This document shows, one piece after another, positions 42,489 through 59,642 of a stretch of DNA of 64,000 nucleotides. The notes below the pieces were generated by a model. It was given only the letters and a program-made list of their open reading frames with translations, was not told the DNA's origin and searched no databases. The position numbers and the translations under genes are program-made. This DNA is from Catellatospora vulcania (GTDB taxonomy: Bacteria > Actinomycetota > Actinomycetes > Mycobacteriales > Micromonosporaceae). Position 1 is the stretch's first letter. Each line of letters opens with the position of its first letter. The stretch is from assembly GCF_009720385.1 (NCBI RefSeq), contig NZ_WARX01000001.1, positions 744,001 through 808,000 of the forward strand, given 5' to 3'.

Positions 42489-42492
42489 GGCG

Positions 42493-43371
42493 TCAGGCGG
42501 CCGGGTGCAGGTTCGCCCAGGCACGCGCGGCGGGCCGCTCGGCCTGCCACCGGTCGAGCAGTTCCCGCGCGTGATCCAGCGGCGCGGCCAGCAGAATCTG
42601 CTGGCTGCCGACGGGGACGACGCGCTCCTGGCGCACTGTCGACGCGCTGCAGCACGCACACATGTCGCGCCGGGTCGACGGCAGCTCCATGCCGTACTTC
42701 TCCTGCGCGAACAGCTCCGCGAGCGCCTCGACGTCGGCCTGCTCCGACGCCTCCGCGTCGACGGTCAGCGTGGCCAGGTCCGAGGGCGTGAACAGGGCGA
42801 TCTCGTCGAAGACGGGGACGGTCAGGTCGCCGTACACCCGCTCACCGTTGGGCACGCCGTCGTGCAGCACCACCTCGCCGAACCGGCGGGACGGGTGGAA
42901 CGGCACGTTGACGATCCGCGCCCGGGTGGGGCAGACCCGGACGGCCCAGACGACCTCCTGGCCACCCTCGGTCTCGATGCGTACGCAGGTCGGCCCGAGG
43001 TCCTCGTCGATCTCGCCGGTGCCGGGCGGCAGCCGCAGGCCGTAACCGGCCCAGGCGTCACGGGCGGTGTCCCACTCGCGCAGCATGGTCGCCGCGATGC
43101 CGAGGTTCCAGAACGCGGGCTCCTGCTTGCCGCGCCTGACGAGCGAGGCGGCGGTCCGGCCGTGCTCGAACGCGCGCGGCCAGTCCCGGGCGAACTTGTA
43201 CGCCAGCGCGGCGTCGAACCAGGTGGCCTGCTGCACCTTGCCCGTCGGCAGCAATGCCGCCGCCCCGGCGAGCCGCTGCCCGGCCAGCGGCCAGTCCTCG
43301 GCCTCGAACGCCGTGTAGGCGTCGGCGTGTGCGGAACGGGCTGCGGCAGTGATCCTCAAGCGCCCGAACAT
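42493..43371 (-). CDS. Hypothetical protein with N-terminal TPR-like helices and CxxC motif
   Basis: A 292-residue protein. Residues about 10-110 contain helix pairs typical of TPR folds (AYTAFEAEDWPLAGQRLAGAAALL, FDAALAYKFARDWPRAFEHGRTA, GIAATMLREWDTARDAW). The middle is beta-rich (RIVNVPFHPSRRFGEVVLHD). A C-terminal part has CACC followed by a hydrophobic helix pattern. Starts at ATG 43371 with AGGGGA 7 bp upstream. Convergent, end to end, with NADAR (4 bp between stops). I do not recognise the family; it may sense or regulate an immunity-type partner but that is only a guess. Confidence 0.7.
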   Translation of the reverse strand: MFGRLRITAAARSAHADAYTAFEAEDWPLAGQRLAGAAALLPTGKVQQATWFDAALAYKFARDWPRAFEHGRTAASLVRRGKQEPAFWNLGIAATMLREWDTARDAWAGYGLRLPPGTGEIDEDLGPTCVRIETEGGQEVVWAVRVCPTRARIVNVPFHPSRRFGEVVLHDGVPNGERVYGDLTVPVFDEIALFTPSDLATLTVDAEASEQADVEALAELFAQEKYGMELPSTRRDMCACCSASTVRQERVVPVGSQQILLAAPLDHARELLDRWQAERPAARAWANLHPAA

Positions 43372-43456
43372 GTTCCCGTCCCCTGATCCGCGTCGTGGTC
43401 GCCGCACGCTACCGCAGACCGTTCCGCCGTGGGGCGCGCGTCCGGCCGTGACCGCG

Positions 43457-43462
43457 TATCCT
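43457..43462 (+). promoter_or_regulatory. Leaderless -10 box (TATCCT)
   Basis: TATCCT ends 6 bp before ATG 43469. Confidence 0.5.
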
Positions 43463-43468
43463 CGCGCG

Positions 43469-44338
43469 ATGTGCGTTTCGGCTGACTACGCGGACTTCCG
43501 CGGCACCATCGTGTACGCGGGCCGGCGCAACCATCCGCGGCTGGGCCGGATCGAGGTGCTGGGCTACCAGAACACCGCGCTCAACCTGGCCGCCGGACCG
43601 AACGCGATGCTGCTGCACCTGCCCGCGGCAGGCGTCGGCCCGGAGCACTTCGTCGACGTCGGCCGTCATGCCGACGTGCTCACCAGGATGTCGGACGCGC
43701 TGACCCCGGTGTCCGCGTCGGCGGACGGCATGGACTGGATGGAGCAGGGGACGCCGCCGCAGGTGCACGTGTTCGAGCACGACGTCTACACCGTGGTGCT
43801 GGCCGAGGACCCGATGCGGGTGTACGCGGCGCTGGAGCGCGTGCCGCCCCACCGCCGCCCGCGGGTGAGCCCGGAGCTGTTCGAGTTCTACGCGACCGCG
43901 TTCCCGGGGCACGCGGTCGCGCTGTGCTGCTTCGACAACCGCGACGCGCGCCGGGCCAAACCGCTGCTGCTCTGGTACGAGCCGCGTGATCCGTCCCGGC
44001 TCGTCGTCCCCGCGATCGACTGCCACACCGGCGGCGTGCCGCGGCTGGGCAGCCCGGTAGGGCGCGACCACCTGGTCGTCTTCGGGGTGGACGACGAGGA
44101 CGTGGCCGACGACTGGGGCCTCGGCCCGGAACACCTGTGCAGCGCGGTCATGCAGTGGCCCGGCGGCATGCGCCACCAGCTCCGGGAGTTCCTGCCGGAC
44201 CGGGTGGTCGGCGTACGCATCGGCGACCTCGACCGGCCGGACCTGCTGGCCAACGGCGACTTCGCCATCGACCACGCCGCCCTGCTCGCCGACGACGGCC
44301 TCACCCGCCTGGGCAGCCTCCGCCTCATCACCCCCTGA
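43469..44338 (+). CDS. Conserved protein of unknown function (289 aa)
   Basis: The protein begins MCVSADYADFRG and contains conserved-looking blocks: YAGRRNHPRLG, LGYQNTALNLA, PNAMLLHLPA, DGMDWMEQG, VFEHDVYTVVLAEDP, LCCFDNRDARRAKPLLLWYEP and DCHTGG. I recall similar sequences in many bacteria with no assigned role. Invariant Cys, His and Asp near CCFDN and DCHTGG could be catalytic. No signal peptide or membrane helix. The leaderless -10 box fixes ATG 43469 as start. Confidence 0.75.
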   Translation: MCVSADYADFRGTIVYAGRRNHPRLGRIEVLGYQNTALNLAAGPNAMLLHLPAAGVGPEHFVDVGRHADVLTRMSDALTPVSASADGMDWMEQGTPPQVHVFEHDVYTVVLAEDPMRVYAALERVPPHRRPRVSPELFEFYATAFPGHAVALCCFDNRDARRAKPLLLWYEPRDPSRLVVPAIDCHTGGVPRLGSPVGRDHLVVFGVDDEDVADDWGLGPEHLCSAVMQWPGGMRHQLREFLPDRVVGVRIGDLDRPDLLANGDFAIDHAALLADDGLTRLGSLRLITP

Positions 44339-44396
44339 CCCACCCCAACCCCCCCCCGCCGCCCGGCCCCGCCTGGCCTGGCCTGCCCAGTCCTGG

Positions 44397-44459
44397 CGCA
44401 ACTCTTAAAGAGCCGCGCCATCAGGCGGGTCATGAGACCGCGACTCTTTAAGAGTTGCG
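44397..44459. terminator. Hairpin of the GCAACTCTTAAAGA family, copy 2
   Basis: CGCAACTCTTAAAGAG at 44397-44412 is complementary to CTCTTTAAGAGTTGCG ending at 44459, with GCGG-type extension and a longer loop. It lies between convergent genes (the 289-residue protein and GntR). Confidence 0.75.
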
Positions 44460-44502
44460 GCAGGGGCGCGGGGCGGGGCGGGGCGGGGCGGTGGGTGCCT
44501 GG

Positions 44503-45186
44503 TCAGGAGGGGAAGGCGGGGAGGTGGCGGTCGCGGGCCGAGGTGAGGTGGTGGTGCATGGCGTCGGCGGCGGCGTCGGCGTCGCCCTTGGCGATGGCGG
44601 TGGCGATGCGCTTGTGCTCGCCGACGGTGTCGCCGGTGCCCGCGGAGGGGAAGTACAGCCGGTGCAGGTGCAGGTGGGCGTGCAGCCGGATGATGGCGTC
44701 GCGGAGCAGGCCGCTGCCGGAGACCTCGGCGACCAGGCCGTGGAAGCGGGCGTCGAGAGCGGTGAACACGGCGTGCCTGCGGTAGCCGTCACCGGCTTCG
44801 ACGGCGACCGTGGCGGCGGCCTCCTCGCGTACCCGGCGGCGCTGCTCGGCGTCGGCCTGGGCGGCGGCGCGGCGGGCGGCCGCGGGCTCCAGCAGCAGCC
44901 GCATCTCGAACAGCTCGTCGAACTCGGTGCGGGTGAGCAGCGGGGTGGTGGTGTATCCGGACATGGCGCGCTTGCGCACCAGGCCGTCGGACTCCAGACG
45001 GGCCAGCGCCTCCCGGACCGGGGTGGGGGAGACTTCGAGGGTACGGGCAAGGCCGTCGATGCTCACCCGCTCGCCGGGTGCGATGGCGTGCTCCATGATG
45101 AGGGTCTTGAGTGACTCGTAGACGTCATCGGTCAGCGTGAGCCGCTGCGCGGGCCGGATCCGGCCGGAGATGGGCGTAGTGGCCAT
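44503..45186 (-). CDS. GntR family (FCD/FadR subgroup) regulator of the fucose cluster
   Basis: A 227-residue regulator with a winged helix at about 17-85 (LTDDVYESLKTLIMEHAIAPGERVS, VSPTPVREALARLESDGLVRKR) and an all-helical FCD effector domain. The metal-binding Asp and His residues are in place (DARFHGLV, HLHRLYF, EHKRIATAI). It is divergent from the lactonase gene. The TATAGGATCTA motif in that promoter recurs in the dehydratase/lutA divergent promoter, making it the likely pathway repressor, released by a pathway acid such as L-fuconate or its keto derivative (inference). Confidence 0.92.
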   Translation of the reverse strand: MATTPISGRIRPAQRLTLTDDVYESLKTLIMEHAIAPGERVSIDGLARTLEVSPTPVREALARLESDGLVRKRAMSGYTTTPLLTRTEFDELFEMRLLLEPAAARRAAAQADAEQRRRVREEAAATVAVEAGDGYRRHAVFTALDARFHGLVAEVSGSGLLRDAIIRLHAHLHLHRLYFPSAGTGDTVGEHKRIATAIAKGDADAAADAMHHHLTSARDRHLPAFPS

Positions 45187-45245
45187 CGGAACACCCCTTG
45201 ACTGTCACCGTCGTGAGCGAGTACACCTTATCGATACTGCAATGA

Positions 45246-45256
45246 TATAGGATCTA
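45246..45256. promoter_or_regulatory. Candidate GntR operator TATAGGATCTA (site 1)
   Basis: This 11-bp motif is identical to one in the other divergent promoter of the cluster (49280-49290). It lies 33 bp before the lactonase GTG at 45289. Here the left half site is degenerate (CAATGA instead of GGATCC). Confidence 0.6.
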
Positions 45257-45288
45257 TGATTACCGTGGACCTGACAGGGGGCAGACAC

Positions 45289-46131
45289 GTGCGGATCGAC
45301 GCGCACCACCACCTGTGGACGGCTGACTACGCCTGGCTGGCCGAACCCGGCCTGGAGCCGCTGCGCCGCGACTACACCGTCGAGGACCTGCGCCGCGAGC
45401 TGCCGACCGGCAAGGTGGACGCTACCGTGCTGGTGGAAGCCGGGCGGTGCCACACCGACGAGACCGTACGCTTCCTGGCGCTCGCGCAGGACACGCCCGA
45501 GATCGCCGGAGTGGTGGGCTGGGCCTCGCTGACCGACCCCGACCTGCCCGGCACCATCACCACGTTCCTGGACGGGCGCGGCGGCGACCTGCTCGTCGGC
45601 CTGCGCGACCAGGTCCAGGGCGTGACCGACCCCGGTTACCTGGCCCGCCCTGACGTCCGCGGCGCGCTGCGGGCGATCGGCGCGGCCGGGCTCACCTTCG
45701 ACCTCGTGGTGCGCGCCGACCAGCTGCCGTCGGTCGCCGCGGCCGTCGCGGCGACGCCGAACACCATGTTCGTGCTCGACCACCTGGGCAAACCGCGGAT
45801 CACGGCGGACGGCCTGCGCGAATGGCGGGACGCGGTCGAGCCGCTGTCGGCCTGCGACAACGTCGCCGCCAAACTGTCCGGGCTGCTCACCGAGGCCGGT
45901 CCGGACTGGACGGTCGAGGCGATCGTGCCGTTCGTGGAGACCGCGCTGGAGCTGTTCGGCCCCGACCGGCTGCTGATCGGCTCGGACTGGCCGGTCTGCG
46001 AGCTGGTCGCCTCGTACGCCGACGCGCTGGCCGCGGTCGGTTCCTGCCTGTCGGGGCTGTCGCCCTCGGAGCGGGCCGCCGTGGAGGGCGGCACCGCGAT
46101 TCGCACCTACGGTCTGGAGATCAACCAATGA
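45289..46131 (+). CDS. Amidohydrolase family 2 protein, probable L-fucono-1,5-lactonase
   Basis: A 280-residue TIM-barrel metal-dependent hydrolase. It begins VRIDAHHHLW, the metal-binding HxH strand of family 2, and ends with LLIGSDWPVCEL, carrying the conserved Asp. VLDHLGKP carries another metal His. In this cluster the expected reaction is opening of L-fuconolactone to L-fuconate. GTG 45289 is chosen for its AGGGGG 7 bp upstream and for matching the usual family N-terminus; ATG 45256 would overlap the operator. The stop overlaps the next ATG. Confidence 0.88.
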   Translation: MRIDAHHHLWTADYAWLAEPGLEPLRRDYTVEDLRRELPTGKVDATVLVEAGRCHTDETVRFLALAQDTPEIAGVVGWASLTDPDLPGTITTFLDGRGGDLLVGLRDQVQGVTDPGYLARPDVRGALRAIGAAGLTFDLVVRADQLPSVAAAVAATPNTMFVLDHLGKPRITADGLREWRDAVEPLSACDNVAAKLSGLLTEAGPDWTVEAIVPFVETALELFGPDRLLIGSDWPVCELVASYADALAAVGSCLSGLSPSERAAVEGGTAIRTYGLEINQ

Positions 46132-46970
46132 AGTTCATGCGGGTCGGCGCCCCGGGCGCGGAGAAGCCGGTGCTGCTGTCCGGCGGCCGGCACTACGACC
46201 TGTCCCCGGTCACGCCCGACATCGACGGCGCGTTCCTGGCCGCGGACGGCGTCGGCCGGGTCCGGGCGGCCGCGGCGGACCTGCCCGAGATCGACGTCAC
46301 CGGCCTGCGGGTCGGCGCGCCGGTGGCCCGGCCGGGTGTGGTGCTGTGCGTCGGGCAGAACTACGCGGCGCACGCCGCCGAGTCCGGCGCGCCCTCGCCG
46401 ACCACGCCGATCGTCTTCTACAAGGCCCCGAACACGGTGGTCGGCCCGTACGACGAGGTGCTGATCCCGCGCGGCTCGACCACCACGGACTGGGAGGTGG
46501 AGCTGGCCGTCGTCATCGGGCGGCGGGCCCGCTACCTCGACTCGCCCGCGCAGGCCCTCGACCACGTGGCCGGGTTCGTCGTGTCCAACGACGTGTCCGA
46601 GCGCGACTTCCAGCTGCAGCAGTCCGGCGGGCAGTGGTCCAAGGGCAAGTCCTGCGAGACGTTCCAGCCGCTGGGCCCGTGGCTGGTCACCCCGGACGAG
46701 GTCGCGGACGTGCAGGGGCTCGGGCTGCGCTCGTGGGTCAACGGCGAGGTCCGGCAGGACTCGACCACCAAGGACATGATCTTCGACGTGGCGTACCTGA
46801 TCTGGCACCTGTCGCAGTACACGGTGCTGGACCCGGGCGACGTGGTGAACACGGGCACGCCGCAGGGCGTGGCCCTGTCGGGCCGCTTCCCCTACCTGGC
46901 CGCGGGCGACGTGATCGAGGTCGAGATCGACGGCCTCGGCCGCCAGCGCAACGTCATGGCCCAGGCCTGA
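46128..46970 (+). CDS. Fumarylacetoacetate hydrolase family protein, probable 2,4-diketo-3-deoxy-L-fuconate hydrolase
   Basis: A 280-residue FAH-fold C-C bond hydrolase. An N-terminal small domain (1-65) precedes the catalytic core with CVGQNYAAHAAESG, FYKAPNTVVGP and DWEVELAVVIGRRARYL (metal-binding Glu). SNDVSERDFQ and VVNTGTPQGVALS follow. In the oxidative fucose pathway this enzyme splits 2,4-diketo-3-deoxy-L-fuconate into pyruvate and L-lactate. Its ATG overlaps the lactonase TGA. The presence of lactate-oxidising lutABC in the same block supports this assignment. Confidence 0.9.
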   Translation: MKFMRVGAPGAEKPVLLSGGRHYDLSPVTPDIDGAFLAADGVGRVRAAAADLPEIDVTGLRVGAPVARPGVVLCVGQNYAAHAAESGAPSPTTPIVFYKAPNTVVGPYDEVLIPRGSTTTDWEVELAVVIGRRARYLDSPAQALDHVAGFVVSNDVSERDFQLQQSGGQWSKGKSCETFQPLGPWLVTPDEVADVQGLGLRSWVNGEVRQDSTTKDMIFDVAYLIWHLSQYTVLDPGDVVNTGTPQGVALSGRFPYLAAGDVIEVEIDGLGRQRNVMAQA

Positions 46971-47053
46971 CAGACCCGGAGGCGGTGCGCTCGGCGGCGT
47001 GCCGCCCCGCCTCCGCCCCCCGCCCCGCCTCCGCCCCCCGGCCGCGCCCGTCG

Positions 47054-47116
47054 CGCAACTCTTGAAGAGTCGCGGTCTTGCCGCGCCCCTGAGGCCGCGA
47101 CTCTTCAAGAGTTGCG
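47054..47116. terminator. Hairpin of the GCAACTCTT(A/G)AAGA family, copy 3
   Basis: Perfect 22-bp inverted repeat (47054-47075 and 47095-47116) starting CGCAACTCTTGAAGAG. It lies between the convergent FAH-family and SDR genes. Confidence 0.8.
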
Positions 47117-47170
47117 GCAGAGAAAGGGCGGCGTCGCCCGTGTGTAGGGGCCACGCCGCCGGATGGGGGG

Positions 47171-47908
47171 TCAGCGGATCAGGCGGAGGCCGCTCATGCC
47201 GCCGTCGACGGCGAGTGAGGTGCCGGTGGTGGCGCCCGAGCGGGGGGAGGCGAGGTAGGCGACGGCCTCGGCGACCTGGTCGGCGGTGACCAGGCGGCCG
47301 GTGGGCTGGCGGGCGGCGAGTTTGCGCTTCTCCTCGGCCGGGTCGTCGGCTCCGGCCAGCAGCCGGGCCACCCAGGGGGTGTCGACCGTGCCGGGGGCGA
47401 CGCTGACCACGCGGATGCCCTCGCCGACCAGGTCGGCGGCCATGGCCAGGGTCAGCGCGTGCACAGCCCCCTTGGTCGCCGAGTAGACGGCCCGGTTCAC
47501 CAGGCCGGCCGTCGCGGCGATCGAGGAGATGTTCACGATCACGCCGCTCTTCGAGCCGCGCAGGAACGGCAGCGCGGCCCGGCTGGCGCGGGCGATGCCG
47601 ACGACGTTGACGTCCAGGCAGCGCTGCCACTCTTCGTCGGCGGCCTCCTCGACCGTGCCGACGGCGCTGATCCCGGCGCAGTTGACGAGGATGTCGAGGC
47701 TGCCCAGGGTGCTCACGACCCGGGCCATCGCGGCGTCCAGCGGCGCGGTGACGTCGGCGGTGACGGCCAGGTGCCGGCCGCCCTCGGCGGGCGCGCGGTC
47801 GAGCACCGCCACCGCCGCGCCGCGGTCGGCAAGCAGATCGGCGATCGCCGCGCCGATGCCCGACGCGCCGCCGGTGATCGCGGCGACCAGGCCTGAGAAC
47901 TCAGTCAT
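47171..47908 (-). CDS. SDR family dehydrogenase, probable 2-keto-3-deoxy-L-fuconate dehydrogenase
   Basis: A 245-residue classical short-chain dehydrogenase with TGGASGIG at 12-19, NCAG at 76-79, the catalytic Ser in NISSI (127-131), and Tyr142/Lys146 in YSATK. An Asp after strand 2 (VLDRAP) indicates NAD+ preference. In the pathway it would oxidise the C4 hydroxyl of 2-keto-3-deoxy-L-fuconate. It overlaps the upstream dehydratase gene by 8 bp, so the pair is co-translated. Confidence 0.9.
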
Positions 47909-49208
47909 TCTTCCACTCCGGACCGTCGGGGAAGCTGTAGCGGAGCAGGGACTCCTCGTGCATCCTGGCCGAGAAGCCGGGCGCTTCGGGCGCGGCGTAC
48001 CGGCCGTTCACGATGCGGACCGGGTCGGCGAAGTGCTCGTGCAGGTGGTCCACGTACTCGATCATCCGGCCGTCCAGGGCGGCGGCCACCGAGGTGTAGT
48101 CGAAGAACGACAGGTGCTGCACCAGCTCGCACAGGCCGACCCCGCCCGCGTGCGGGCAGACCGGCTTGCCGTACGCCGCGGCCAGCAGCAGGATCGCCAG
48201 GTTCTCGTTGACGCCGCCGACCCGGGCCGCGTCGAGCTGCACCACGTCCACCGCGTCGGCCTGCAGCAGCTGCTTGAACATGATGCGGTTGTGCACGTGC
48301 TCGCCGGTGGCCACCCGGATCGGGGTGCCGCCGGGTCCGGCCTGGGACAGCCCGGTGCGGATGGCCGCGTGGCCGAGGATCTCGTCGGGGCTGGTCGGCT
48401 CCTCGATCCAGTACGGGTTCAGGTGGCCCAGGGCGCTCACCCAGCCGATCGCCTCGCCGACGCCCCACCGCTGGTTGGCGTCGATGCCGATCGGGAAGTC
48501 CGGGCCGAGCGCCTGCCGCGCGGCGGTGAACCGGCGGAGGTCGTCGTCGAGGTCCGCGCCGACCTTCAGCTTCACCATGGAGAACCCGTCGGCCACCGCG
48601 CGCAGCGCCCGCCGGGTCACCTTCGCGTCGTCGTAGCCGAGCCAGCCCGCCGAGGTGGTGTACGCCGGGAAGCCGTCGGCGGCGATCTCCTCGGCTCGCG
48701 CGGCCCGGCCCGGCGCACGTGCGCTGAGCAGGTCGTGGGCGGCCTCGGGGGTCAGCGCGTCGGTGAGGTAGCGCCAGTCCACGCAGTCGACGATCGTGTC
48801 GGGGGACAGGCTGGTCAGGTAGCGCCACAGCGGCTGCCCGGCCCGGCGCGCGGCCAGGTCCCAGGCGGCGTTGACGACCGCGCCGGCGGCGAGGTGCATG
48901 ACGCCCTTCTCCGGGCCGAGCCAGCGCAGCTGCGAGTCGTGGGTGAGCCGGCGGCCGAACTCCCCGAGGTCGAGGGTGTCCAGATCCTGGCCCACCACAT
49001 ACGGTCGAAGCGCTTCGATTGCCGCGGCGCAGATGTCGTTGCCCCGCCCGATGGTGAAGGTGAAGCCGTGCCCGTCGGTGTCGCCGTCGGTGACCAGCTC
49101 GACGTAGGCGGCCGAGTAGTCGGGATCCGGGTTCATCGCGTCGGAGCCGTCGAGGTGGCGTGAGGTGGGGAAGCGGATGTCGCGTACGCGCAGATCAATG
49201 ACCTTCAT
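47901..49208 (-). CDS. fucD: L-fuconate dehydratase (enolase superfamily, FucD/ENOSF1-like)
   Basis: A 435-residue mandelate-racemase-group enolase. Acid/base and metal residues are in place: KLK motif at Lys213/Lys215, metal ligands Asp243 (GIDANQRW), Glu269 ([10 protein letters not shown]) and Glu303 (ATGEHVHNR), and a general base His353 in [11 protein letters not shown]. The spacing matches characterised L-fuconate dehydratases almost residue for residue. It converts L-fuconate to 2-keto-3-deoxy-L-fuconate. No ribosome site precedes ATG 49208; a 13-codon ORF with a strong one overlaps the start instead. Confidence 0.93.
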
Positions 49209-49246
49209 CGCGCCGCGCCGCGGGGTGGGCAGTGGTGGGTCGGCAT
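49205..49246 (-). CDS. 13-codon upstream ORF coupled to fucD
   Basis: On the minus strand GGAAGGAG stands 8 bp before an ATG that encodes [13 protein letters not shown] and stops at a TGA overlapping the fucD start (ATGA). The dehydratase has no ribosome site of its own, so reinitiation or coupling from this leader is the simplest reading. The peptide is rich in Pro, His and Arg and could modulate coupling. This is too short for homology proof. Confidence 0.55.
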
Positions 49247-49272
49247 GTGGTTGGCTCCTTCCGGCTACATCC

Positions 49273-49290
49273 TGGATCCTATAGGATCTA
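49273..49290. promoter_or_regulatory. Candidate GntR operator (site 2), GATCCTATAGGATC core
   Basis: GATCCTATAGGATC at 49275-49288 is a perfect 14-bp palindrome inside TGGATCCTATAGGATCTA. Its right half is identical to site 1 at 45246-45256. It lies between the divergent fucD and lutA genes and could control both. Confidence 0.65.
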
Positions 49291-49332
49291 GCCTCAAGAG
49301 CAAGACATCGTCAAGGGAGGAGGGGTCGCTCC

Positions 49333-50013
49333 GTGCGGATCGCACTGTTCGTCACATGTCTCAACGACGCGCTGTTCCCGCAGGCCGGTATCGCGACGGT
49401 GACGGTGCTGGAACGGCTCGGCCACACCGTCGCGTTCCCGGACGCTCAGTCGTGTTGTGGCCAGATGCACGCCAACACCGGCTACGCGGCGCCCGCCCGC
49501 CGACTGGAGCGCCTCACCGGGGCCGCGTTCGCCGGCCACGACGTAATCGTCTCCCCCTCGGGCTCCTGCGTCGCCCACCTGCGCGCCCACACCGGCCTAC
49601 CCGCCTACGAGCTGTCCGAGCTGCTGATCGACGTGCTCGGCGTGACCGACGTGGGCGCGACCTTCCCGCACCGCGTCACCTACCACCCGACCTGCCACGG
49701 CCTGAGAGCACTCCGCCTCGGCGACCGCCCCACCACCCTGCTGCGCGCCGTCAAGGGTTTGCAACTCATCGACCTGCCCGAACCCGAGCAGTGCTGCGGC
49801 TTCGGCGGCACCTTCGCCCTCAAGAACGCCGCCGTCTCCGGCGCCATGCTCGCCGACAAATGCGCCAACGCCGCCACCACCGGCGCCGAATACCTCGCCG
49901 CCGCCGACAACTCCTGCCTGGCCCACATCGGCGGCGGCCTCGCCCGCCACCCCGCCGCCCCCAAACCGATCCACTACGCCGAAATCCTCGCCACCACCGG
50001 AGCCCACCCATGA
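49333..50013 (+). CDS. lutA: LutA-type (Fe-S)-binding subunit of L-lactate oxidation
   Basis: A 226-residue protein with two CCG domains: SCCGQMH near residue 37 and QCCGFGGTF near 155, plus the intervening THxxCHG-like HPTCHGLRAL. These motifs bind a non-cubane or 4Fe-4S cluster in LutA/GlcF/HdrB-like proteins. It forms a complex with LutB and LutC that oxidises L-lactate to pyruvate. GTG 49333 lies downstream of a purine-rich GGGAGGAGGGG. It is the first gene of a plus-strand operon with lutB, lutC, the aldose dehydrogenase and the aldehyde oxidoreductase. Confidence 0.9.
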   Translation: MRIALFVTCLNDALFPQAGIATVTVLERLGHTVAFPDAQSCCGQMHANTGYAAPARRLERLTGAAFAGHDVIVSPSGSCVAHLRAHTGLPAYELSELLIDVLGVTDVGATFPHRVTYHPTCHGLRALRLGDRPTTLLRAVKGLQLIDLPEPEQCCGFGGTFALKNAAVSGAMLADKCANAATTGAEYLAAADNSCLAHIGGGLARHPAAPKPIHYAEILATTGAHP

Positions 50014-50035
50014 CCCCCCCACCCCCTCCCCGAGC

Positions 50036-50110
50036 CGACGATCTTGCGTGGACTGTGGGGACGACACGCACTATCCGGGCAGATGGGCAACAGTTCGCGC
50101 AAGATCGTCG
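50036..50110. repeat. Inverted repeat with CGACGATCTTGCG arms between lutA and lutB
   Basis: The 13-bp arms (50036-50048 and 50098-50110) are perfect, with a loop of 49 bases. It is an intra-operon palindrome, possibly a processing site or attenuator that sets lutA and lutB levels apart. Confidence 0.65.
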
Positions 50111-50130
50111 CGATCATGGGGGTGGGGACG

Positions 50131-51564
50131 GTGAGTAGGGAGCTGCCGATCGTGGCGATCACGCCGTTTGCGGTGGCGGCGGAGCGTGAGCTGGGGGATG
50201 CGCAGCTGCGGGCGAATCTGGGGCGGGCCACGCGGACCATTCGCGACAAGCGGGCGCGGGTGGTGGCCGAGGTCGCCGACTGGGAGCCGATGCGGGATCG
50301 GGCCGCGGCGGTCAAGGACGAGGTGCTGGACAACCTGTCGGAGCTGCTGGCGCGATTCGAGGCGGCGGCGGTCGCGGCCGGGGCGACGGTGCACCACGCG
50401 ACGGACGCCGCGCACGCGAACGCGATCGTGACCGAGCTGGTGAAGGAGCAGCGGGCCGAGAGCGTGGTGAAGATCAAGTCGATGGCCACGCAGGAGATCG
50501 GGCTGAACGAGGCTCTTGAGGCCGCGGGCATCACGCCGATCGAGACGGACCTGGCCGAGCTGATCGTGCAGCTCGCCGACGACACCCCGTCGCACATCCT
50601 GGTCCCGGCGATCCACTACAACCGCAGCCAGATCCGGGACCTGTTCGCGCGGCGCATGCCCGGGTTCACCGCCACGTCGGACGAACCCGCGGTGCTGGCC
50701 GGGGCGGCGCGCGAGTACCTGCGCCGCACGTTCCTCGCCGCGAAGGTGGCGGTGTGCGGGGCCAACTTCGCGATCGCTGCGACCGGGTCGCTGGTCATCG
50801 TCGAGTCGGAGGGCAACGGGCGGATGTGCCTGACCCTGCCGGAGACGCTGATCGCGGTCGTGGGCGTGGAGAAGCTGCTGCCCCGCTTCGCCGACCTCGG
50901 CGACTTCCTGCGGCTGCTGCCGCGCTCGTCGACCGGGGAGCGGATGAACCCGTACACCTCGATCTTCACCGGGGTGACGCCCGGTGACGGGCCGCAGCGG
51001 CTGCACATCGTGCTGCTGGACAACGGCCGCACCCAGGTCGCGCAGGACCCGGTCGGCCGGGCGGCGCTGCGCTGCATCCGCTGCTCGGCCTGCCTCAACG
51101 TGTGCCCGGTGTACGAGCGCGCGGGCGGCCACGCCTACGGCTCGGTCTACCCCGGACCGATCGGGGCGATCCTGTCGCCGCAGCTCACCGGGCAGGACGC
51201 GGGGTTCAACAAGACCCTGCCGTACGCCTCGACGCTGTGCGGGGCCTGCTACGACGTCTGCCCCGTGAAGATCAACATTCCGGAGATCCTGGTGCACCTG
51301 CGCCAGACCGGCTCGAAACCGGCCGCCGAGCGGGCCGCGATGTCGACACTGAGCTGGGTGATGCGCGACCGGCGGCGGTGGCGCGCCGCGCTGCGGGCCG
51401 CCCGGTCCGGGGCCGCGCCGCTGCGCGCCCTCACCCGCCGCCGGGGCGGCACGCTGCGGCGCGCGCCGTGGCCGCTGTCGGCGTGGACCGCGCACCGCGA
51501 CGCGCCGCTGCCCGCGGCCGAGTCGTTCCGAGACTGGTGGAGGCGCACCCATGAGTCTTCCTGA
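50131..51564 (+). CDS. lutB: LutB-type iron-sulfur subunit of L-lactate oxidation
   Basis: About 477 residues. The N-terminal region (LRANLGRATRTIRDKRARVVAEV, SMATQEIGLNEALE, LVPAIHYNR) is the DUF162/LUD domain shared with LutC. The C-terminal ferredoxin part has CIRCSACLNVCPVY and CGACYDVCPVKINIP for two 4Fe-4S clusters, followed by a basic helical tail. The exact start is uncertain: the frame is open upstream into the inverted repeat. GTG 50131 (GGGGTGGGG just before) or GTG 50152 (GGGAG 9 bp upstream) both fit the usual N-terminus. Overlaps lutC by 14 bp. Confidence 0.9.
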   Translation: MSRELPIVAITPFAVAAERELGDAQLRANLGRATRTIRDKRARVVAEVADWEPMRDRAAAVKDEVLDNLSELLARFEAAAVAAGATVHHATDAAHANAIVTELVKEQRAESVVKIKSMATQEIGLNEALEAAGITPIETDLAELIVQLADDTPSHILVPAIHYNRSQIRDLFARRMPGFTATSDEPAVLAGAAREYLRRTFLAAKVAVCGANFAIAATGSLVIVESEGNGRMCLTLPETLIAVVGVEKLLPRFADLGDFLRLLPRSSTGERMNPYTSIFTGVTPGDGPQRLHIVLLDNGRTQVAQDPVGRAALRCIRCSACLNVCPVYERAGGHAYGSVYPGPIGAILSPQLTGQDAGFNKTLPYASTLCGACYDVCPVKINIPEILVHLRQTGSKPAAERAAMSTLSWVMRDRRRWRAALRAARSGAAPLRALTRRRGGTLRRAPWPLSAWTAHRDAPLPAAESFRDWWRRTHESS

Positions 51565-52147
51565 GCTGTTCGCCGAGCGGGCGGGCGACTACCGCGCCGG
51601 GATGCACCACTGCACCGAGGACGACCTGCCCGCGGTGCTCGCCGGTCTGCTGGCCGGAGCGTCCAAGGTGGTGCTGCCGCCGGGCCTGCCGGACGCGTGG
51701 ACCGCCGCGCTGACCATGCCGGCCCTCCTGGACGGCCCGGCGGTCGCACAGGCGGCTCGGCCCGGATCGGCTCGGGACGGGCGAGCCGCCGCGCTGACGG
51801 CGGCCGAGCTGGACGAGGCCGGGCTGACGGCGGTTGAGCTGGACGAAGCCGGGCTGTCCGTGCTCACCGGGTGTGCGGTGGCGATCGCGGAGACCGGCAC
51901 GATCGTGCTCGACGCCGGGCCGGGGCAGGGCCGGCGGCTGCTGACACTGGTCCCGGACCACCACGTCTGCGTGGTACGCGACGAGCAGATCGTCGCCGAC
52001 GTGCCCGACATGATCGCCGCGCTGCCCGATCCCCGCCGACCCCTGACGATGATCTCCGGGCCGTCGGCGACCAGTGACATCGAGCTGAACCGGGTCGAGG
52101 GCGTGCACGGTCCGCGCCGCCTCGACATCGTCTGCGTACATCCCTGA
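51551..52147 (+). CDS. lutC: LutC-type LUD domain subunit of L-lactate oxidation
   Basis: A 198-residue LUD-domain protein with the typical C-terminal half CAVAIAETGTIVLDAGPG, TLVPDHHVCVV and GPSATSDIELNRVEGVHGPRRL. The last of these is the conserved signature of LutC/YkgG. Its ATG lies inside the end of lutB. A 33-bp tandem duplication encodes LTAAELDEAG/LTAVELDEAG at about residues 78-97. Completes a lutABC set in canonical order. Confidence 0.92.
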   Translation: MSLPELFAERAGDYRAGMHHCTEDDLPAVLAGLLAGASKVVLPPGLPDAWTAALTMPALLDGPAVAQAARPGSARDGRAAALTAAELDEAGLTAVELDEAGLSVLTGCAVAIAETGTIVLDAGPGQGRRLLTLVPDHHVCVVRDEQIVADVPDMIAALPDPRRPLTMISGPSATSDIELNRVEGVHGPRRLDIVCVHP

Positions 52148-52169
52148 GCACACGGAAAGGCGATCCACC

Positions 52170-53165
52170 ATGACCAAAGCGCTAGGCGGCTCCAAGGTCG
52201 CGGTCAGCGCGCTCGGGTTCGGCGCGGCGTCCATCGGCAACCTCTACCGGGCCGTCCCGGACGAGCAGGCCGCGGCCACCGTCGACGCCGCCTGGCAGGC
52301 GGGCATCCGGTACTTCGACACCGCACCGCACTACGGGCTGGGCCTGTCGGAGCAGCGGCTGGGCCGGGCCCTGGCCGGGCGGCCGCGCGAGCAGTACGTC
52401 GTCTCCACCAAGGTCGGCCGGATCCTCGTCGACGAACCCGACGGCGCGGGCGACGACATGGCCAACGGCTTCGCGGTGCCCGCGACCCGGCGGCGGGTGT
52501 GGGACTACAGCGCCGCCGGGGTGCGCCGCAGCATCGAGCAGAGCCTGTCCCGGCTCGGCCACGACCGCGTCGACATCGTGCTGATGCACGACCCGGAGGA
52601 GAGCCCGGACCCCGACCGGGCGCTGCGCGAGGCGTACCCGGCGCTGGACGGGCTGCGCCGCGAGGGTGTCGTCGGCGCGATCGGCGTCGGCTCCAAGGAC
52701 CCGGCGACGCTGGCGCGCTTCGCGCACGAGACCGATGTGGACGCGCTGATGGTCGCCGGGCGGTACACGCTGCTGGAGCAGCCCGCACTCGACGACATCC
52801 TGCCCGCCTGCGTCACTCGTGGCATCTCGGTGCTCAACGTCGGCGTGTTCAACAGCGGCCTGCTGGCCGTGGAGTGGCCCGACGAGACCCGGCCGTACGA
52901 GTACGGCGCCGCGCCCGCCGGCATCCTGGCCCGCGCGCAGGGCATCGCCACCGCGTGCCGCCGCCACGGGGTGACCCTGCCGCAGGCCGCGCTCGCGTTC
53001 GCGGCCGCGCACCCGGCCGTCGCGTCGGTCGTGGTCGGCGCGGGCAAGCCGAGCCACGTCGAGCGCAGCGCCGAGTGGTTCGCCCTGCCCGCGCCGCCCG
53101 CGCAGCTGTGGGCCGAGCTGGTCGACGAGGGCCTGCTGCGCCCCGACGCCCCGGTCCCCGCATGA
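52170..53165 (+). CDS. Aldo/keto reductase, probable L-fucose (D-threo-aldose) 1-dehydrogenase
   Basis: A 331-residue AKR with Asp and Tyr of the tetrad in RYFDTAPHYGLGLSEQRLGRAL, Lys in STKVGR and His in VLMHDPE. The segments AGRYTLLEQPAL and VGVFNSGLLAVEWP fit the D-threo-aldose 1-dehydrogenase branch, whose members oxidise L-fucose to the lactone with NAD(P)+. This supplies the first step of the pathway encoded around it. Its stop overlaps the start of the aldehyde oxidoreductase gene. Confidence 0.9.
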   Translation: MTKALGGSKVAVSALGFGAASIGNLYRAVPDEQAAATVDAAWQAGIRYFDTAPHYGLGLSEQRLGRALAGRPREQYVVSTKVGRILVDEPDGAGDDMANGFAVPATRRRVWDYSAAGVRRSIEQSLSRLGHDRVDIVLMHDPEESPDPDRALREAYPALDGLRREGVVGAIGVGSKDPATLARFAHETDVDALMVAGRYTLLEQPALDDILPACVTRGISVLNVGVFNSGLLAVEWPDETRPYEYGAAPAGILARAQGIATACRRHGVTLPQAALAFAAAHPAVASVVVGAGKPSHVERSAEWFALPAPPAQLWAELVDEGLLRPDAPVPA

Positions 53166-54919
53166 CGTACCTGCATCTCGACCTGGACAGCGGTGGCCAG
53201 TACACCGAGCCGGCGGTCGGCTGGGGCGGGCCGCTGCAGGCACTGTCCACGCTGTACAAGGCGCTGGACGGGCTGGTCGACCCGGCCGATCCGCGGCTGC
53301 CCGTCGCGCTGGTCACCAGCACCGTCGCCGGGCTCGGCGCGGTCGGCACGGCGCGCGTCGCCGCCGTCGGCGTCTCGCCGCTGTCCGGCGCGGTCGCCGA
53401 GACCCGGGCCGAAGGCCCGTACGCGGCGGGCATGCGCGCGGCGGGGATCACCGGCATCAGCCTGACCGGGTCTGCCGTCCAGCCGTCCTATGTCGTCGTC
53501 GCGGCCGGACGGGCCGCTGTGCTCCCGGCGGGCGAGCTGTGGGGGATGGAGACCGGGCAGGCCACCGAGACCCTGCTGGCCCGGCACGGGCGCGACGCCG
53601 CCGTCGCGGTGATCGGGCCGGCGGGCGAGGCCGGGGCGCGCTACGCCGACGTCGTCACCTGCGGCTCGTTCCCGCTGCCCCGGCTCGGGTTCGGGGCGGT
53701 GCTCGGCGCGCGGCGCATCAAGGCCGTTGTCTGCGTGCCGTCCGGTTCCGCCCCGTGGCCGCACGACGTGCTCGCCGCGCAGGCGCTGTTCACCGCGTAC
53801 CGCCGGGAGATGCCGGACCACCCGCTGGCCGGCTGGCAGCTCGCAGCCCCGGGTTTCGGGGCCTGGCCGGGCACGTCGGCCGAGCCCGGCGCGGCGGCGG
53901 TGCGCAACTTCGCCGACACCGCCACCGCCCCCGCGTCCTGGCCCGGCCTGCACCCCGACCGCTACGCCGCGTTCGCGACCTGGTCCGGCGGCGGCTGTCC
54001 CGGCTGCCCCAACGACTGCGTCAAGGGGTACGCGGGCGCGGGCCTGCACCAGGAGGCCGTGGCGATGCTCGGTCCGAACCTCGGTATCGGCGACCTCGGC
54101 GCGATCCTCGCCGCCAACGCCCGCTGCCAGGACCTGGGCCTCGACCCGGTGTCGCTCGGCGGCACCCTGGCCTGCGTGTTCGAAGCCGCCGATCGCGGCT
54201 CGCTGCCGTCCTGGCTGGCCGAGGAGCTGCCGCCGGGAGCCGGCTTCGGGGCCGCCGAGCTGCTCGTCGAGCTGGTCGAGCGGGCCGCTCGGCCGGGGCA
54301 TCCGCTGGGGGTGGGCGCGGCGGCGCTGGCCGCCCGGATCGGCGCGCCCGAACTCGCGATGACCAGCCGCGGGGTCGAGCTGCCGCCGTTCGACCCGCGC
54401 GCCCAGCCCGGCCTGGGACTGATGTACGCGGCCGCGCCGATCGGCCCGCGCTACGACGCCGTGGAGCACGACCTCGACTTCGACCCGGTGTACGGCCTGC
54501 CGCACTGCTACGGCGAGGCCGAGCGGATCGGGCTGTCGGTGCCCGCGCCCGCGTCCACCCTGGACGTCGCGCGCACGCTGCGCCTGGCCGACCTGTGGAG
54601 CGGCCTGGACGCGCTGCTGATCTGCCCGTTCGCCAGCACGCCGACCCGGCCGCTCACCCTCGACCGCGTCTGCGAGCTGGTCCGGGCCACCTCCGGCCGT
54701 CCGATCACCCCGGAGCAGGTGTTCGCCCTCGGCCGGGACCGGCTGCGCGCCCAGCAGGAGATCAACGACCGGCTCGGCGTGCCCGCCGGGACCCTGCCCG
54801 CCAGGTTCTTCGACGAACCCGTGGCCACCGGTGCGCACCGCGGAGCGGCCCTCGACCGGGCCGAGTTCTCCGCCGCGGTGCGGGCGCTGCACCACCACTG
54901 GCGCACCACCACGACCTGA
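53162..54919 (+). CDS. Aldehyde:ferredoxin oxidoreductase-like tungsto/molybdoenzyme
   Basis: A 585-residue protein of the AOR family. The N-terminal domain shows VSPLSGAVAETRAEGPYAAG and GITGISLTGSA; RLGFGAVLGARRIKAVV follows, matching the pterin-binding GxGAVMGSKxLKAI motif. Four cluster cysteines are conserved: Cys279, Cys282 and Cys286 (CPGCPNDC) and Cys488 (LDALLICPF), as in hyperthermophile AORs. It should oxidise an aldehyde to the acid using a bis-pterin W or Mo centre and a 4Fe-4S cluster. The substrate in this operon is unknown. ATG overlaps the AKR stop (ATGA). Divergent from well-studied AORs, so activity is not certain. Confidence 0.87.
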   Translation: MTYLHLDLDSGGQYTEPAVGWGGPLQALSTLYKALDGLVDPADPRLPVALVTSTVAGLGAVGTARVAAVGVSPLSGAVAETRAEGPYAAGMRAAGITGISLTGSAVQPSYVVVAAGRAAVLPAGELWGMETGQATETLLARHGRDAAVAVIGPAGEAGARYADVVTCGSFPLPRLGFGAVLGARRIKAVVCVPSGSAPWPHDVLAAQALFTAYRREMPDHPLAGWQLAAPGFGAWPGTSAEPGAAAVRNFADTATAPASWPGLHPDRYAAFATWSGGGCPGCPNDCVKGYAGAGLHQEAVAMLGPNLGIGDLGAILAANARCQDLGLDPVSLGGTLACVFEAADRGSLPSWLAEELPPGAGFGAAELLVELVERAARPGHPLGVGAAALAARIGAPELAMTSRGVELPPFDPRAQPGLGLMYAAAPIGPRYDAVEHDLDFDPVYGLPHCYGEAERIGLSVPAPASTLDVARTLRLADLWSGLDALLICPFASTPTRPLTLDRVCELVRATSGRPITPEQVFALGRDRLRAQQEINDRLGVPAGTLPARFFDEPVATGAHRGAALDRAEFSAAVRALHHHWRTTTT

Positions 54920-54964
54920 CACGCGCGCCAGCCCTAGCCCCCGACCACCGTCGCCGTCGCGTCG

Positions 54965-54988
54965 TCGCATCGCATCGCATCGCATCGC
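54965..54988. repeat. TCGCA pentanucleotide tandem repeat
   Basis: Four perfect TCGCA units plus a partial fifth lie between the aldehyde oxidoreductase and DivIVA genes. Short tandem arrays of this kind can vary in copy number. Confidence 0.85.
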
Positions 54989-55073
54989 GACGATCTTCAC
55001 GCCTTCCGTGATCTGGTCCAGACCGGAATGCGCGAATCGCCGGATTCGGCTCGGGGGAGCAGGGGTCGTTGCC

Positions 55074-55079
55074 TAGGCT
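55074..55079 (+). promoter_or_regulatory. Leaderless -10 box (TAGGCT) of the DivIVA-domain gene
   Basis: TAGGCT ends 6 bp before ATG 55086, the same sequence and spacing as at 2229-2234. Confidence 0.55.
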
Positions 55080-55085
55080 TACGTC

Positions 55086-56132
55086 ATGGCTCGGACCGCC
55101 GCTGACCAGGTGCGCAGTGATGACTTGTTCACCACCGCGCTGTGGGGATACTCCATGGACGAGGTGGACGCCTACGTCGAGGACACCGCCAGGCGCATGC
55201 GCCGGCTCGCCGCGGAGATCCAGCGGCTGTCCGTGGCGGAGAACCAGCTCGGCGCCGCCCGGATAGAGATCTCCAAACTGACCTCCGAACTCGCCGAGGC
55301 GCGGCCGCTGGCCAGCGTCGGCCCCCGGGTGCAGGCGATCCTGCGGATGGCCGAGCGGGAGGCCGAAACGCTGCGCCGCACGGCGTTCGAGGTGCTGCGC
55401 AAGGCCTACGAGGAGGCGCGCGAGGTTCGGCAGAAGGCCGAGGACGAGGCGTACAACGCCACCCGCGACTACGAGATCGCCCTCGCCCACCGCCGCAGGC
55501 ACGACAAGGAAGAGCTGATCGCCGAGGTCATGGCCGAAGCCGCCGCGAGCGCCGAGCCGGAGCCCGAGCCGCGCGAGACCGTCGGGATGCGGGAACTGTT
55601 CGCCAGCGCGTCCGAGAAGAAGCGCAAGCGGGTGGACGGCCGTCAGCCGGTGGACGGGGTAGCCCGCAAGAGCGCCGTCGAGCCGGTGCCAACGGTGCAG
55701 GCGGGGTCGGACCTGGGGTTCACGCCGGATCTTGAGGCCGAACGCGACGTCGAGCCCGTTCCCACTGCGACGGACGCCCGCGCCGTGGGTCTGGCGTCGG
55801 CGAACGGCCAGGCTGCGGGTTCGGCGCCAACGGGCCGCCCGACCGCGGTCGCGGCGCCGGTGGACGGGGCTCGCGAGGATGCCGCCGCGGCCGCCTGTCT
55901 CGGGCCTGCCGAGGCCGGTGTGCAGCGCGACGAGCCGGGGGTCGATGACCACACCGTGCCGGAGGTGCTGGAGGACGAGTACCCCGTCATCGAGGAGCCG
56001 GTGGAGCGGTTCCACAACGGGTCGAACAAGTCGCGCCGCAAGCGGGCCCGCAACCAGCGCGCCAACCCCGCCAACGCGCAACCCGCCGGCTCGTCCGACC
56101 CCGCGCAGACCCTTCCCGCCAAGCGCCCGTGA
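55086..56132 (+). CDS. DivIVA-domain coiled-coil protein
   Basis: A 348-residue protein. The DivIVA-like N-terminus FTTALWGYSMDEVDAYVEDTARRM is at about residues 15-38. A coiled coil rich in Ala, Glu and Arg runs to about 155 (QRLSVAENQLGAARIEISKL, EREAETLRRTAFEVLRKAYEEAREVRQKAE). The remainder is disordered, low-complexity Pro/Ala/Val/Glu sequence with a basic tail SRRKRARNQRAN. Such proteins localise to curved membrane or septa in actinobacteria. It is shorter in its ordered part than Wag31 and is likely a paralogue. Confidence 0.85.
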   Translation: MARTAADQVRSDDLFTTALWGYSMDEVDAYVEDTARRMRRLAAEIQRLSVAENQLGAARIEISKLTSELAEARPLASVGPRVQAILRMAEREAETLRRTAFEVLRKAYEEAREVRQKAEDEAYNATRDYEIALAHRRRHDKEELIAEVMAEAAASAEPEPEPRETVGMRELFASASEKKRKRVDGRQPVDGVARKSAVEPVPTVQAGSDLGFTPDLEAERDVEPVPTATDARAVGLASANGQAAGSAPTGRPTAVAAPVDGAREDAAAAACLGPAEAGVQRDEPGVDDHTVPEVLEDEYPVIEEPVERFHNGSNKSRRKRARNQRANPANAQPAGSSDPAQTLPAKRP

Positions 56133-56176
56133 GCCGGCCCGGCCCGGACCCCGGACCGATGGTGTGCAGAGCGTCC

Positions 56177-56221
56177 TTCGGTGCCATGAGCTGCGGTCCG
56201 GCCGCAGCTCATGGCACCGAA
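56177..56221. terminator. 20-bp perfect hairpin between convergent genes
   Basis: TTCGGTGCCATGAGCTGCGG (56177-56196) pairs exactly with 56202-56221 across a 5-base loop. It lies between the DivIVA gene and the small minus-strand gene. Confidence 0.75.
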
Positions 56222-56264
56222 CAGCGATCATCCACCCTGTCGCCGACCGTGCCCCACGGCGGCG

Positions 56265-56483
56265 TCAGCGGGCTTCGCGCCAGCCGCGCTTGAGGTCGCC
56301 GTTCCAGCCGCGCCGGATGTCGGTGGAGGCGTGCGGTGCTCCGACGCGGAGCACGTCCCAGCGGCGGTGCGGCTCCTCGGAGCTCTTCAGCGTGATCCGG
56401 TCACCGATTCTGACCTTGGGCTCCACCCAGCACGTCAGCATCCGGTTTCCGGATCTCAGGTCGACCTGAACCAGCGTTGTCAT
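56265..56483 (-). CDS. Small hypothetical protein (72 aa)
   Basis: The protein starts MTTLVQVDLRSGNRM and contains CWVEPKVRIGDRITLKSSEEPHRRWDVLRVG, suggesting a small beta-barrel (SH3- or OB-like) fold; a conserved-looking DLKRGWREAR tail follows. I recall similar short proteins in many actinomycetes without assigned function. ATG 56483 has a TACCGT box 7 bp upstream. It stands alone between a hairpin and the TauE-like gene. Confidence 0.75.
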   Translation of the reverse strand: MTTLVQVDLRSGNRMLTCWVEPKVRIGDRITLKSSEEPHRRWDVLRVGAPHASTDIRRGWNGDLKRGWREAR

Positions 56484-56490
56484 GGCCGCG

Positions 56491-56496
56491 ACGGTA
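56491..56496 (-). promoter_or_regulatory. Leaderless -10 box (TACCGT) of the 72-residue protein gene
   Basis: Minus-strand TACCGT ends 7 bp before ATG 56483. Confidence 0.45.
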
Positions 56497-56605
56497 GCAA
56501 CGATCACCGTCGACGTCCTCCGAGTTTCGCCGCCGCCCGCCGGGTGCGGATGGGGACTGGTTCACATTCTGTTCACGGGACGCGCGGGCGGGGTGACGCT
56601 GCGGG

Positions 56606-56611
56606 TACGGT
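56606..56611 (+). promoter_or_regulatory. Leaderless -10 box (TACGGT) of the TauE-like gene
   Basis: TACGGT ends 7 bp before GTG 56619. Confidence 0.5.
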
Positions 56612-56618
56612 GCCGCCC

Positions 56619-57338: not shown

Positions 57339-57371
57339 CCGATGTCGCAGGGTTGAGGCAGGGTGGACGGC

Positions 57372-58366: not shown

Positions 58367-59642
<1,276 letters not shown>

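Follow-up and report, generated by a model that had tools for sequence, protein, structure and literature searches.

A predicted L-fucose regulon with LutABC and an AOR-family oxidoreductase in Catellatospora vulcania

Which substrate do the genes at positions 44503-54919 of a 64,000-nucleotide stretch of the Catellatospora vulcania genome serve (the window; contig NZ_WARX01000001.1, positions 744,001 to 808,000), and what is an AOR/WOR-family oxidoreductase doing among them? Open reading frames and family searches place ten genes in this block. The initial annotation read it as an L-fucose-to-pyruvate pathway joined to LutABC lactate oxidation. Every gene that it named is present as an open frame with family matches, but the last gene, encoding the AOR/WOR-family protein (AOR; 53162-54919), went unmentioned. 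Our overall reading is that the block is probably the core of an L-fucose regulon, with the AOR as an accessory pathway enzyme. We consider an L-fucose pathway with LutABC very likely and are nearly sure that the AOR belongs to it; its action at C1 of the sugar is proposed tentatively.

The predicted L-fucose pathway

The gene set and its order are read directly from the DNA, and we infer each enzymatic step from homology and context. An aldo-keto reductase (AKR; 52170-53165, forward strand; PF00248 9e-52), predicted to be an NAD(P)-dependent L-fucose 1-dehydrogenase, would oxidize L-fucose at C1 to L-fuconolactone, which would be opened by an amidohydrolase-family (Amidohydro_2) L-fuconolactonase (45256-46131, forward strand; PF04909 8e-45; best PDB match 4dlf, 1e-38). 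The resulting L-fuconate would be dehydrated by FucD, an L-fuconate dehydratase of the enolase superfamily (47901-49208, reverse strand; PDB 2hne/1yey, XcFucD, E 3.5e-178). Its product would be oxidized at C4 by a short-chain dehydrogenase (SDR; 47171-47908, reverse strand; PF13561 3e-50), a predicted 2-keto-3-deoxy-L-fuconate 4-dehydrogenase whose specificity is not resolvable from sequence. An FAH-family hydrolase (FAA_hydrolase; 46128-46970, forward strand; PF01557 6e-72), predicted to act on 2,4-diketo-3-deoxy-L-fuconate, would then split the SDR product into pyruvate and L-lactate, and LutABC would oxidize L-lactate to pyruvate. The last step is assigned to three adjacent genes on the forward strand, namely LutA with cysteine-rich CCG domains (49333-50013; PF02754 3e-32), LutB with a LUD domain, a 4Fe-4S dicluster and LutB_C (50131-51564, with alternative starts at 50044 and 50083; PF02589 1.7e-40, PF13183, PF11870), and LutC with a LUD domain (51551-52147; PF02589 2.7e-22). 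Thus, by homology, a C1 dehydrogenase, a lactonase, FucD, a C4 SDR and an FAH hydrolase occur together, as in a non-phosphorylating L-fucose cluster, and the route proposed in the initial annotation, to pyruvate and L-lactate and on through LutABC, is supported by homology and context.

FucD aligns with XcFucD over residues 3-435 at 596 bits and has the KLKVGA, DANQRW, EEPTSPD, GEH and PHAGG segments in common with it, to which we presume catalytic roles; the next distinct PDB matches are 4ip4 (542 bits) and human ENOSF1 4a35 (501), followed by matches of at most 153. The names of the lactonase, the FAH hydrolase and LutB rest on family and context, since all three score below NCBIfam equivalog cut-offs, the lactonase reaching 206 bits against the L-fucono-1,5-lactonase model NF052480 (cut-off 400) and LutB 428 bits against TIGR00273, just below 444.8.

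The same gene set was looked for in related genomes and was found there. All ten genes keep their order in six other Catellatospora loci, with one extra gene between FAH and SDR in L003 and L005, and therefore the arrangement is not due to chance. Relatives extend across the Micromonosporaceae, of which 300 genomes were surveyed, and FucD is detected at E<=1e-60 in 255 of them. Loci were fetched from 38 genomes, a non-random set chosen for presence of the AOR, membership of Catellatospora or a high FucD score. The usual core comprises AKR, lactonase, FAH, FucD and SDR, single members being missing in some loci; an SDR homologue of at least 59% identity occurs in 32/38 fetched FucD loci. LutABC is found in the fetched locus of 13 of the 38 genomes, belonging to five genera. 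The start chosen by the open reading frame caller is sometimes late, for example in L006, which proved intact on inspection.

Operator sites and the extent of the predicted regulon

FucD and SDR are transcribed divergently from the LutABC-AKR-AOR unit, and the palindrome ATCCTGGATCCTATAGGATCTAGCCT lies between the two (49269-49294). Comparison of upstream regions, from which the operator was derived, yielded 50 sites with the majority consensus ATCGTAGATCCTATAGGATCTACGAT and a strongly kept 12-base core (90-100% per column); a perfect 26-base palindrome, TTCGTAGATCCTATAGGATCTACGAA, is present in five loci of one genus. The core ATCCTATAGGAT was found with at most one mismatch in 35/39 fetched loci, the reversed pattern in none, and permuted palindromes (n=60) in 0.12 loci on average and at most in 3. 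This count covers 39 of the 40 fetched loci, L170, the second piece of G134, being excluded. The core is missing from L155, L160, L162 and L164, of which L160 and L162 end short of a site that is present on the same contigs in L063 and L064. The conserved operator supports the earlier claim that LutABC is part of the same regulon.

A GntR/FCD-family regulator is encoded at one end of the block (44503-45186, reverse strand; PF07729 FCD 1.4e-22, PF00392 GntR 3.7e-15), and its orthologue adjoins the operator in many fetched loci. The regulator most likely acts at the palindromic operators carrying ATCCTATAGGAT, to which it would bind. A second operator-like site, AATGATATAGGATCTATGA (45241-45259, forward strand), is located between the regulator and lactonase genes. 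Since it overlaps the first ATG of the lactonase, the GTG at 45289 is the likelier start of this protein.

This 19-base site has a single other match with up to three mismatches in the 8.83 Mb genome, on contig C21, and the reversed pattern has none. On C21, the site begins 96 bp ahead of a gene for a GH29 alpha-L-fucosidase (PF01120 1.3e-41). The fucosidase gene is present in 7/11 Catellatospora genomes, and an operator-like sequence precedes it in six of these seven, C. vulcania included, the seventh being without it; in each case the sequence, which exists in two versions, has two mismatches to the core. Since this operator-like site also stands upstream of an alpha-L-fucosidase gene, L-fucose is favoured over other sugars as the substrate of the regulon. 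The fucosidase is absent from G016, G071 and G118, where the AOR is missing or fragmentary, and present in seven of the eight other Catellatospora genomes; this co-absence is only suggestive because the species are related. The genes that follow the C21 fucosidase were considered as a sugar importer, which was rejected: they encode an acyltransferase and an ABC-2 exporter.

The initial annotation stated that no sugar transporter is included. This holds for the block but not for the genome, since contig C16 encodes a ribose-type ABC transporter with an exact TCCTATAGGA core about 40 bp before it. This transporter shares 74-77% identity in its four subunits (substrate-binding protein, two permeases and ATPase) with the one encoded within the fucose operon of Winogradskya, and it very likely belongs to the fucose regulon. 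The same type of operator precedes both the ABC sugar transporter and the alpha-L-fucosidase elsewhere in the genome. Two more TCCTATAGGA cores are found on C16, one upstream of a DUF5703-domain gene and the other between inositol-phosphate-synthase-like and ThuA genes. The region C16:38000-72000 (G000; L226/L227), with three TCCTATAGGA cores, encodes GH99-like, GSDH-CBM6-PKD, ThuA, DUF5703, inositol-phosphate-synthase-like and UbiA proteins; it may serve the use of glycans and be controlled by the same regulator or a sister one.

Some further features were recorded. On contig C11, paralogues of AKR (53%) and FAH (60-62%) have lactonase-like and MLE-type genes, or else an ABC importer, in their vicinity (L228, L229) and perhaps represent a second deoxysugar or sugar-acid pathway. 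Rfam models gave no match in 40000-60000 of the window. A 61-base element with the inverted arms GCAACTCTTNAAGAG is present in three copies, at 32966-33026, 44398-44458 and 47055-47115, its arms giving nine matches against 0 expected by shuffles; the copy at 47055, at least, lies between convergent genes, and the element looks like a repetitive extragenic palindrome or a bidirectional terminator. A distinct inverted repeat (GACGATCTTGCG ... CGCAAGATCGTC) is located at 50037-50109, between LutA and LutB inside the operon.

The AOR and its possible role

The AOR gene (53162-54919, forward strand) overlaps the end of the AKR gene by four bases and encodes 585 residues with AFOR_N (PF02730 5.7e-36) and AFOR_C (PF01314 4.2e-49) domains, for which a tungsten- or molybdenum-bis-pyranopterin and one Fe4S4 cluster are predicted. 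Its bit scores are 178 with Pyrococcus furiosus AOR (1aor; 3.5e-51), 140 with FOR and 31.5 with BamB. A spurious frame was rejected on account of the two Pfam domains, conservation over phyla and a ratio of nonsynonymous to synonymous substitution rates of 0.18-0.38 in comparisons with six Catellatospora, between those of FucD (0.14-0.25) and AKR (0.31-0.50); the gene is under purifying selection. Identity to Catellatospora relatives is 81-92% in five loci and 70% in C. tritici. The Fe4S4 ligands follow the family pattern C-x2-C-x3-C plus a distal cysteine, C279, C282 and C286 being invariant in 36 sequences and C488 conserved in at least 90%. The gene is flanked upstream by AKR and downstream by a 348-residue frame (55086-56132) that we take to be DivIVA-like. 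No WorS/WorN gene is adjacent, which places the protein among Class I WORs, with a single large subunit, by the rule given in passages of PMC13328260.

A midpoint-rooted FastTree tree of 70 sequences places the AOR in a clade of 30 members (support 1.0), from which E. coli YdhV and the Azospirillum, Thermovirga, Thermus, two haloarchaeal and remaining actinobacterial AORs of the tree are separate. The tree covers AORs of the sampled loci, the solved reference AORs standing outside it. It includes 29/36 sequences of the first alignment (L018, L036, L050, L054, L057, L063 and L066 were excluded), and among 36 further loci that were tried, L207 had no usable frame. All 30 clade members keep the three close cysteines and the equivalent of Glu313, and 28 keep the distal cysteine. 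In the Thr243 column, all 30 have Phe, whereas 37 of the 40 other sequences have Thr or Ser. The Tyr427 column holds Phe in 26/30 members, against Tyr in 26 and His in 10 of the 40 others, and the His448 column Tyr or Phe in 29/30, against His in 34/40; the phmmer alignment to PfAOR, in turn, puts Asp at His448. The clade also has His in the Glu311 column (23/30) and Gln in the Tyr312 column (27/30). Every clade member has a Glu-His-Asp stretch, and its surrounding motif, found in 29/30 members and 0/40 others, is a partly circular signature for 74 loci, whose search used patterns including CPGCPNDC and VEHDLDFD; L242 is the sole clade member in the tree from outside this peptide-pattern search. 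According to passages of a 2026 survey, Thr243, Glu313, Tyr427 and His448 vary very little in most aldehyde-oxidizing WORs (PMC13328260). Since three of these four second-shell residues are replaced and only Glu313 is kept, the AOR, as judged by alignment, is a member of the family but not a classical aldehyde-oxidizing AOR. Among related proteins, those of Winogradskya and Actinoplanes (L063/L066, 10001-11374) are without a large part of domain 2, with the Fe4S4 cysteines kept, and in that of Actinocatenispora (L046) the Cys motif is followed by a long insertion.

The AOR is detected in 25/300 Micromonosporaceae genomes, three times as a fragment, usually directly after FucD in other genera or after AKR in Catellatospora. 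By their coordinates, the AOR and FucD are at most 6 kb apart in 24 of these 25 genomes; the sole exception is Rhizocola (G042), in which LutABC and the AOR stand side by side behind the same operator, and FucD is encoded on a different contig. Beyond the family, seven loci of Chloroflexi and one of Planctomycetes have FucD (40-44%) beside the AOR, and a lactonase lies within 3 kb of the AOR in six Streptosporangiales loci. Further loci comprise Bacillus FJAT-50079 (FGGY kinase, fucose isomerase, AOR, lactonase), a Thermomicrobiales metagenome-assembled genome (MAG; substrate-binding protein, AOR, dehydratase) and a Phycisphaeraceae MAG, with a GH95 gene 2.6 kb upstream of the AOR and two opposite genes between them. 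For several MAGs with the AOR clade, no sugar gene is present among the scanned neighbours. The clade profile matched 16/394 genomes of the class, only two above 700 bits, and PF01314 matched 95/396 genomes of the phylum.

In our proposal, the AOR would act on C1 of L-fucose (or of a closely related sugar, for example L-galactose or D-arabinose) as a second oxidase, linked to ferredoxin, and would feed the same lactonase and FucD. This is favoured because lactonase and dehydratase act directly after C1 oxidation and are the most frequent recognized partners of the clade outside Micromonosporaceae. With somewhat more reserve, we suggest that an uncharacterized AOR/WOR clade oxidizes free L-fucose at C1 with ferredoxin through a rebuilt active site. 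With the same reserve, this site would combine Phe for Thr243 and Tyr427, the loss of His448 and the new Glu-His-Asp, and it would be used in presumably aerobic actinomycetes and several other phyla; Catellatospora is aerobic. The metal is predicted to be W or Mo, and the genome encodes ModAB (ModA 146 bits, cut-off 62.5) and a MoaA-type protein; a candidate TupA-type tungstate binder, a weak PF12849 match on C5, was rejected as being ModA.

Several observations weigh against this account. The operator is poorly conserved outside its 12-base core, three further two-mismatch sites exist on C1, C21 and C23, and a looser 14-base pattern has 50 sites in the C. vulcania genome against 35 for the reversed control, so that weak sites carry no weight alone. 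At least 230 of the 255 FucD genomes have no AOR. Within Catellatospora, G016 is without it and G071 and G118 hold only fragments, the rest of the cluster being present; since the cluster survives such absence or decay, the AOR is dispensable. Outside Micromonosporaceae, only 25/62 loci, many of them on short contigs, have a FucD-like or lactonase gene (12/25 Streptosporangiales-type, 0/3 Mycobacterium, 13/34 others). In Mycobacterium and an Acidimicrobiaceae MAG (L029, L031, L070), AKR and AOR are followed by a Beta_elim_lyase gene, presumably threonine-aldolase-like, and no fucose genes are present; an amino-acid permease lies upstream and, in Mycobacterium, a cyclase-family hydrolase is added. 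No tungstate transporter model reached its cut-off in the genome, WtpA remaining below it. Moreover, AKR already covers C1 oxidation, so that two enzymes would serve one step. Finally, the LutABC-AOR unit of Rhizocola, devoid of AKR, which is encoded elsewhere in that genome, would suit a lactaldehyde oxidase equally well.

This leads to the main rival, which we consider unlikely, in which the AOR would oxidize L-lactaldehyde to L-lactate ahead of LutABC, the aldehyde being released from 2-keto-3-deoxy-L-fuconate by an aldolase or derived from fuculose-1-phosphate. Besides the separate Rhizocola unit behind an operator, the Bacillus locus, where the AOR comes after FGGY kinase and fucose isomerase genes, fits this scheme, as does a characterized AOR that oxidizes small aldehydes, among them acetaldehyde and glyceraldehyde, in passages of PMC6365974. 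However, family searches reveal no aldolase among the ten genes of the block, and the predicted SDR and FAH-hydrolase pair would yield L-lactate without any aldehyde. The recognized neighbours of the clade outside Micromonosporaceae are more often lactonases and sugar-acid dehydratases, and the replaced second-shell residues argue against an aldehyde oxidizer of the classical type.

It is rather improbable that the AOR is a general aldehyde scavenger of the kind proposed for Brevibacillus BmWOR, merely riding along in the fucose operon. Aldehyde detoxifiers do occur among characterized Class I WORs (passages of PMC13328260), and the gene is patchy, sometimes lost and found in other neighbourhoods. 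A different operon surrounds it in Nonomuraea (L009 11802-19324, L022), a counter-example to the fucose setting; this operon is catabolic, and its genes encode an SDR, a Lyase_1-family lyase, an E1-component dehydrogenase, a glyoxalase-family protein, a lactonase, a MocA-type oxidoreductase and a LacI regulator. The proximity to FucD in all but one of the Micromonosporaceae occurrences and the fucose-type neighbours in several phyla nevertheless speak against mere scavenging. Least probable of all is that the cluster naturally serves L-galactose, D-arabinose, L-rhamnose or some different L-sugar or sugar acid in place of L-fucose: AKR finds its best PDB matches in L-galactose dehydrogenases (1.8e-37) and FAH in L-2,4-diketo-3-deoxyrhamnonate hydrolase 8gsr (3.7e-68), the SDR is generic and AKR, FAH and FucD-like paralogues exist elsewhere in the genome, but the score of FucD with the characterized XcFucD and the operator-like site before the alpha-L-fucosidase gene argue for L-fucose.

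Two other ideas about the AOR were tried. Replacement of AKR by the AOR was not upheld, since Rhizocola keeps an AKR on another contig. A link with hydrolase loss gave no clear pattern: in G151, G229 and G245, of one genus, the locus is without a close FAH or SDR and the FAH paralogues reach only 54-56%, and among these three genomes the AOR is a fragment in one.

Comparison with known systems

The non-phosphorylating L-fucose pathway is known from Xanthomonas campestris (FucD PDB 1YEY/2HNE). The window block has the same dehydrogenase, lactonase, FucD, SDR and FAH-hydrolase steps and adds LutABC, an AOR-family enzyme, a GntR/FCD gene and a family-wide palindromic operator.

To the initial annotation, the combination of fucose genes with LutABC seemed little described, which overstates its novelty. 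The junction recurs in five Micromonosporaceae genera, and we take the lldEFG genes of Actinomycetales to be LutABC. These L-lactate dehydrogenase genes were described in 2013 in RhaR L-rhamnose regulons of Actinomycetales (passages of PMC3870299). In these regulons, as in the window block, L-lactate oxidation genes join a deoxysugar regulon, so that the pathway probably ends in pyruvate. The RhaR system differs in serving rhamnose through a phosphorylating route with the RhaEW aldolase/dehydrogenase, whereas the window block would serve fucose without phosphorylation and has a GntR/FCD gene and the AOR. Non-phosphorylating L-fucose catabolism is also described in actinobacteria (passages of PMC12263773). 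The non-phosphorylative fucose and rhamnose catabolism of SAR202 Chloroflexota involves the same enzyme families and ends in pyruvate plus lactate or lactaldehyde; no LutABC operon appears in the passages of PMC10444878 concerned, and the word "ferredoxin" is absent from its main text.

For Wolframiiraptor, it has been proposed that sugars are oxidized by tungsten oxidoreductases (passages of PMC9246946). The survey PMC13328260, in the passages concerned, divides the AOR/WOR family into 92 clades, among which the present clade is probably included; its main text, the supplements being outside the search, is without the words fucose, sugar, lacton-, actinobacter-, Chloroflexi, Nonomuraea and Mycobacter-. 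Our search, with subscription papers and supplements outside it, found no paper among those listed that connects an AOR with L-fucose, and none that places LutABC in a fucose operon. As for the Class I WORs PfAOR and BmWOR, passages of PMC13328260 show the same single large subunit as in the window AOR, with AFOR_N and AFOR_C, four Fe4S4 cysteines, the Glu313 equivalent and no small-subunit gene. The window AOR differs from both in the equivalents of Thr243, Tyr427 and His448, which are F, F and Y or D depending on the alignment, in the new conserved EHD and in its location inside an actinomycete sugar operon.

Collectively, these comparisons describe a well-supported pathway of a mostly known kind, the new elements being the AOR clade and the defined regulon. 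With the operator, the transporter and the fucosidase, the whole L-fucose regulon of Micromonosporaceae also becomes open to testing. If the reading of the AOR is true, one of the many WOR clades without a physiological role would gain one, and, since gene context and a common operator connect the clade with the use of L-fucose, the question of this orphan W/Mo oxidoreductase becomes directly testable.

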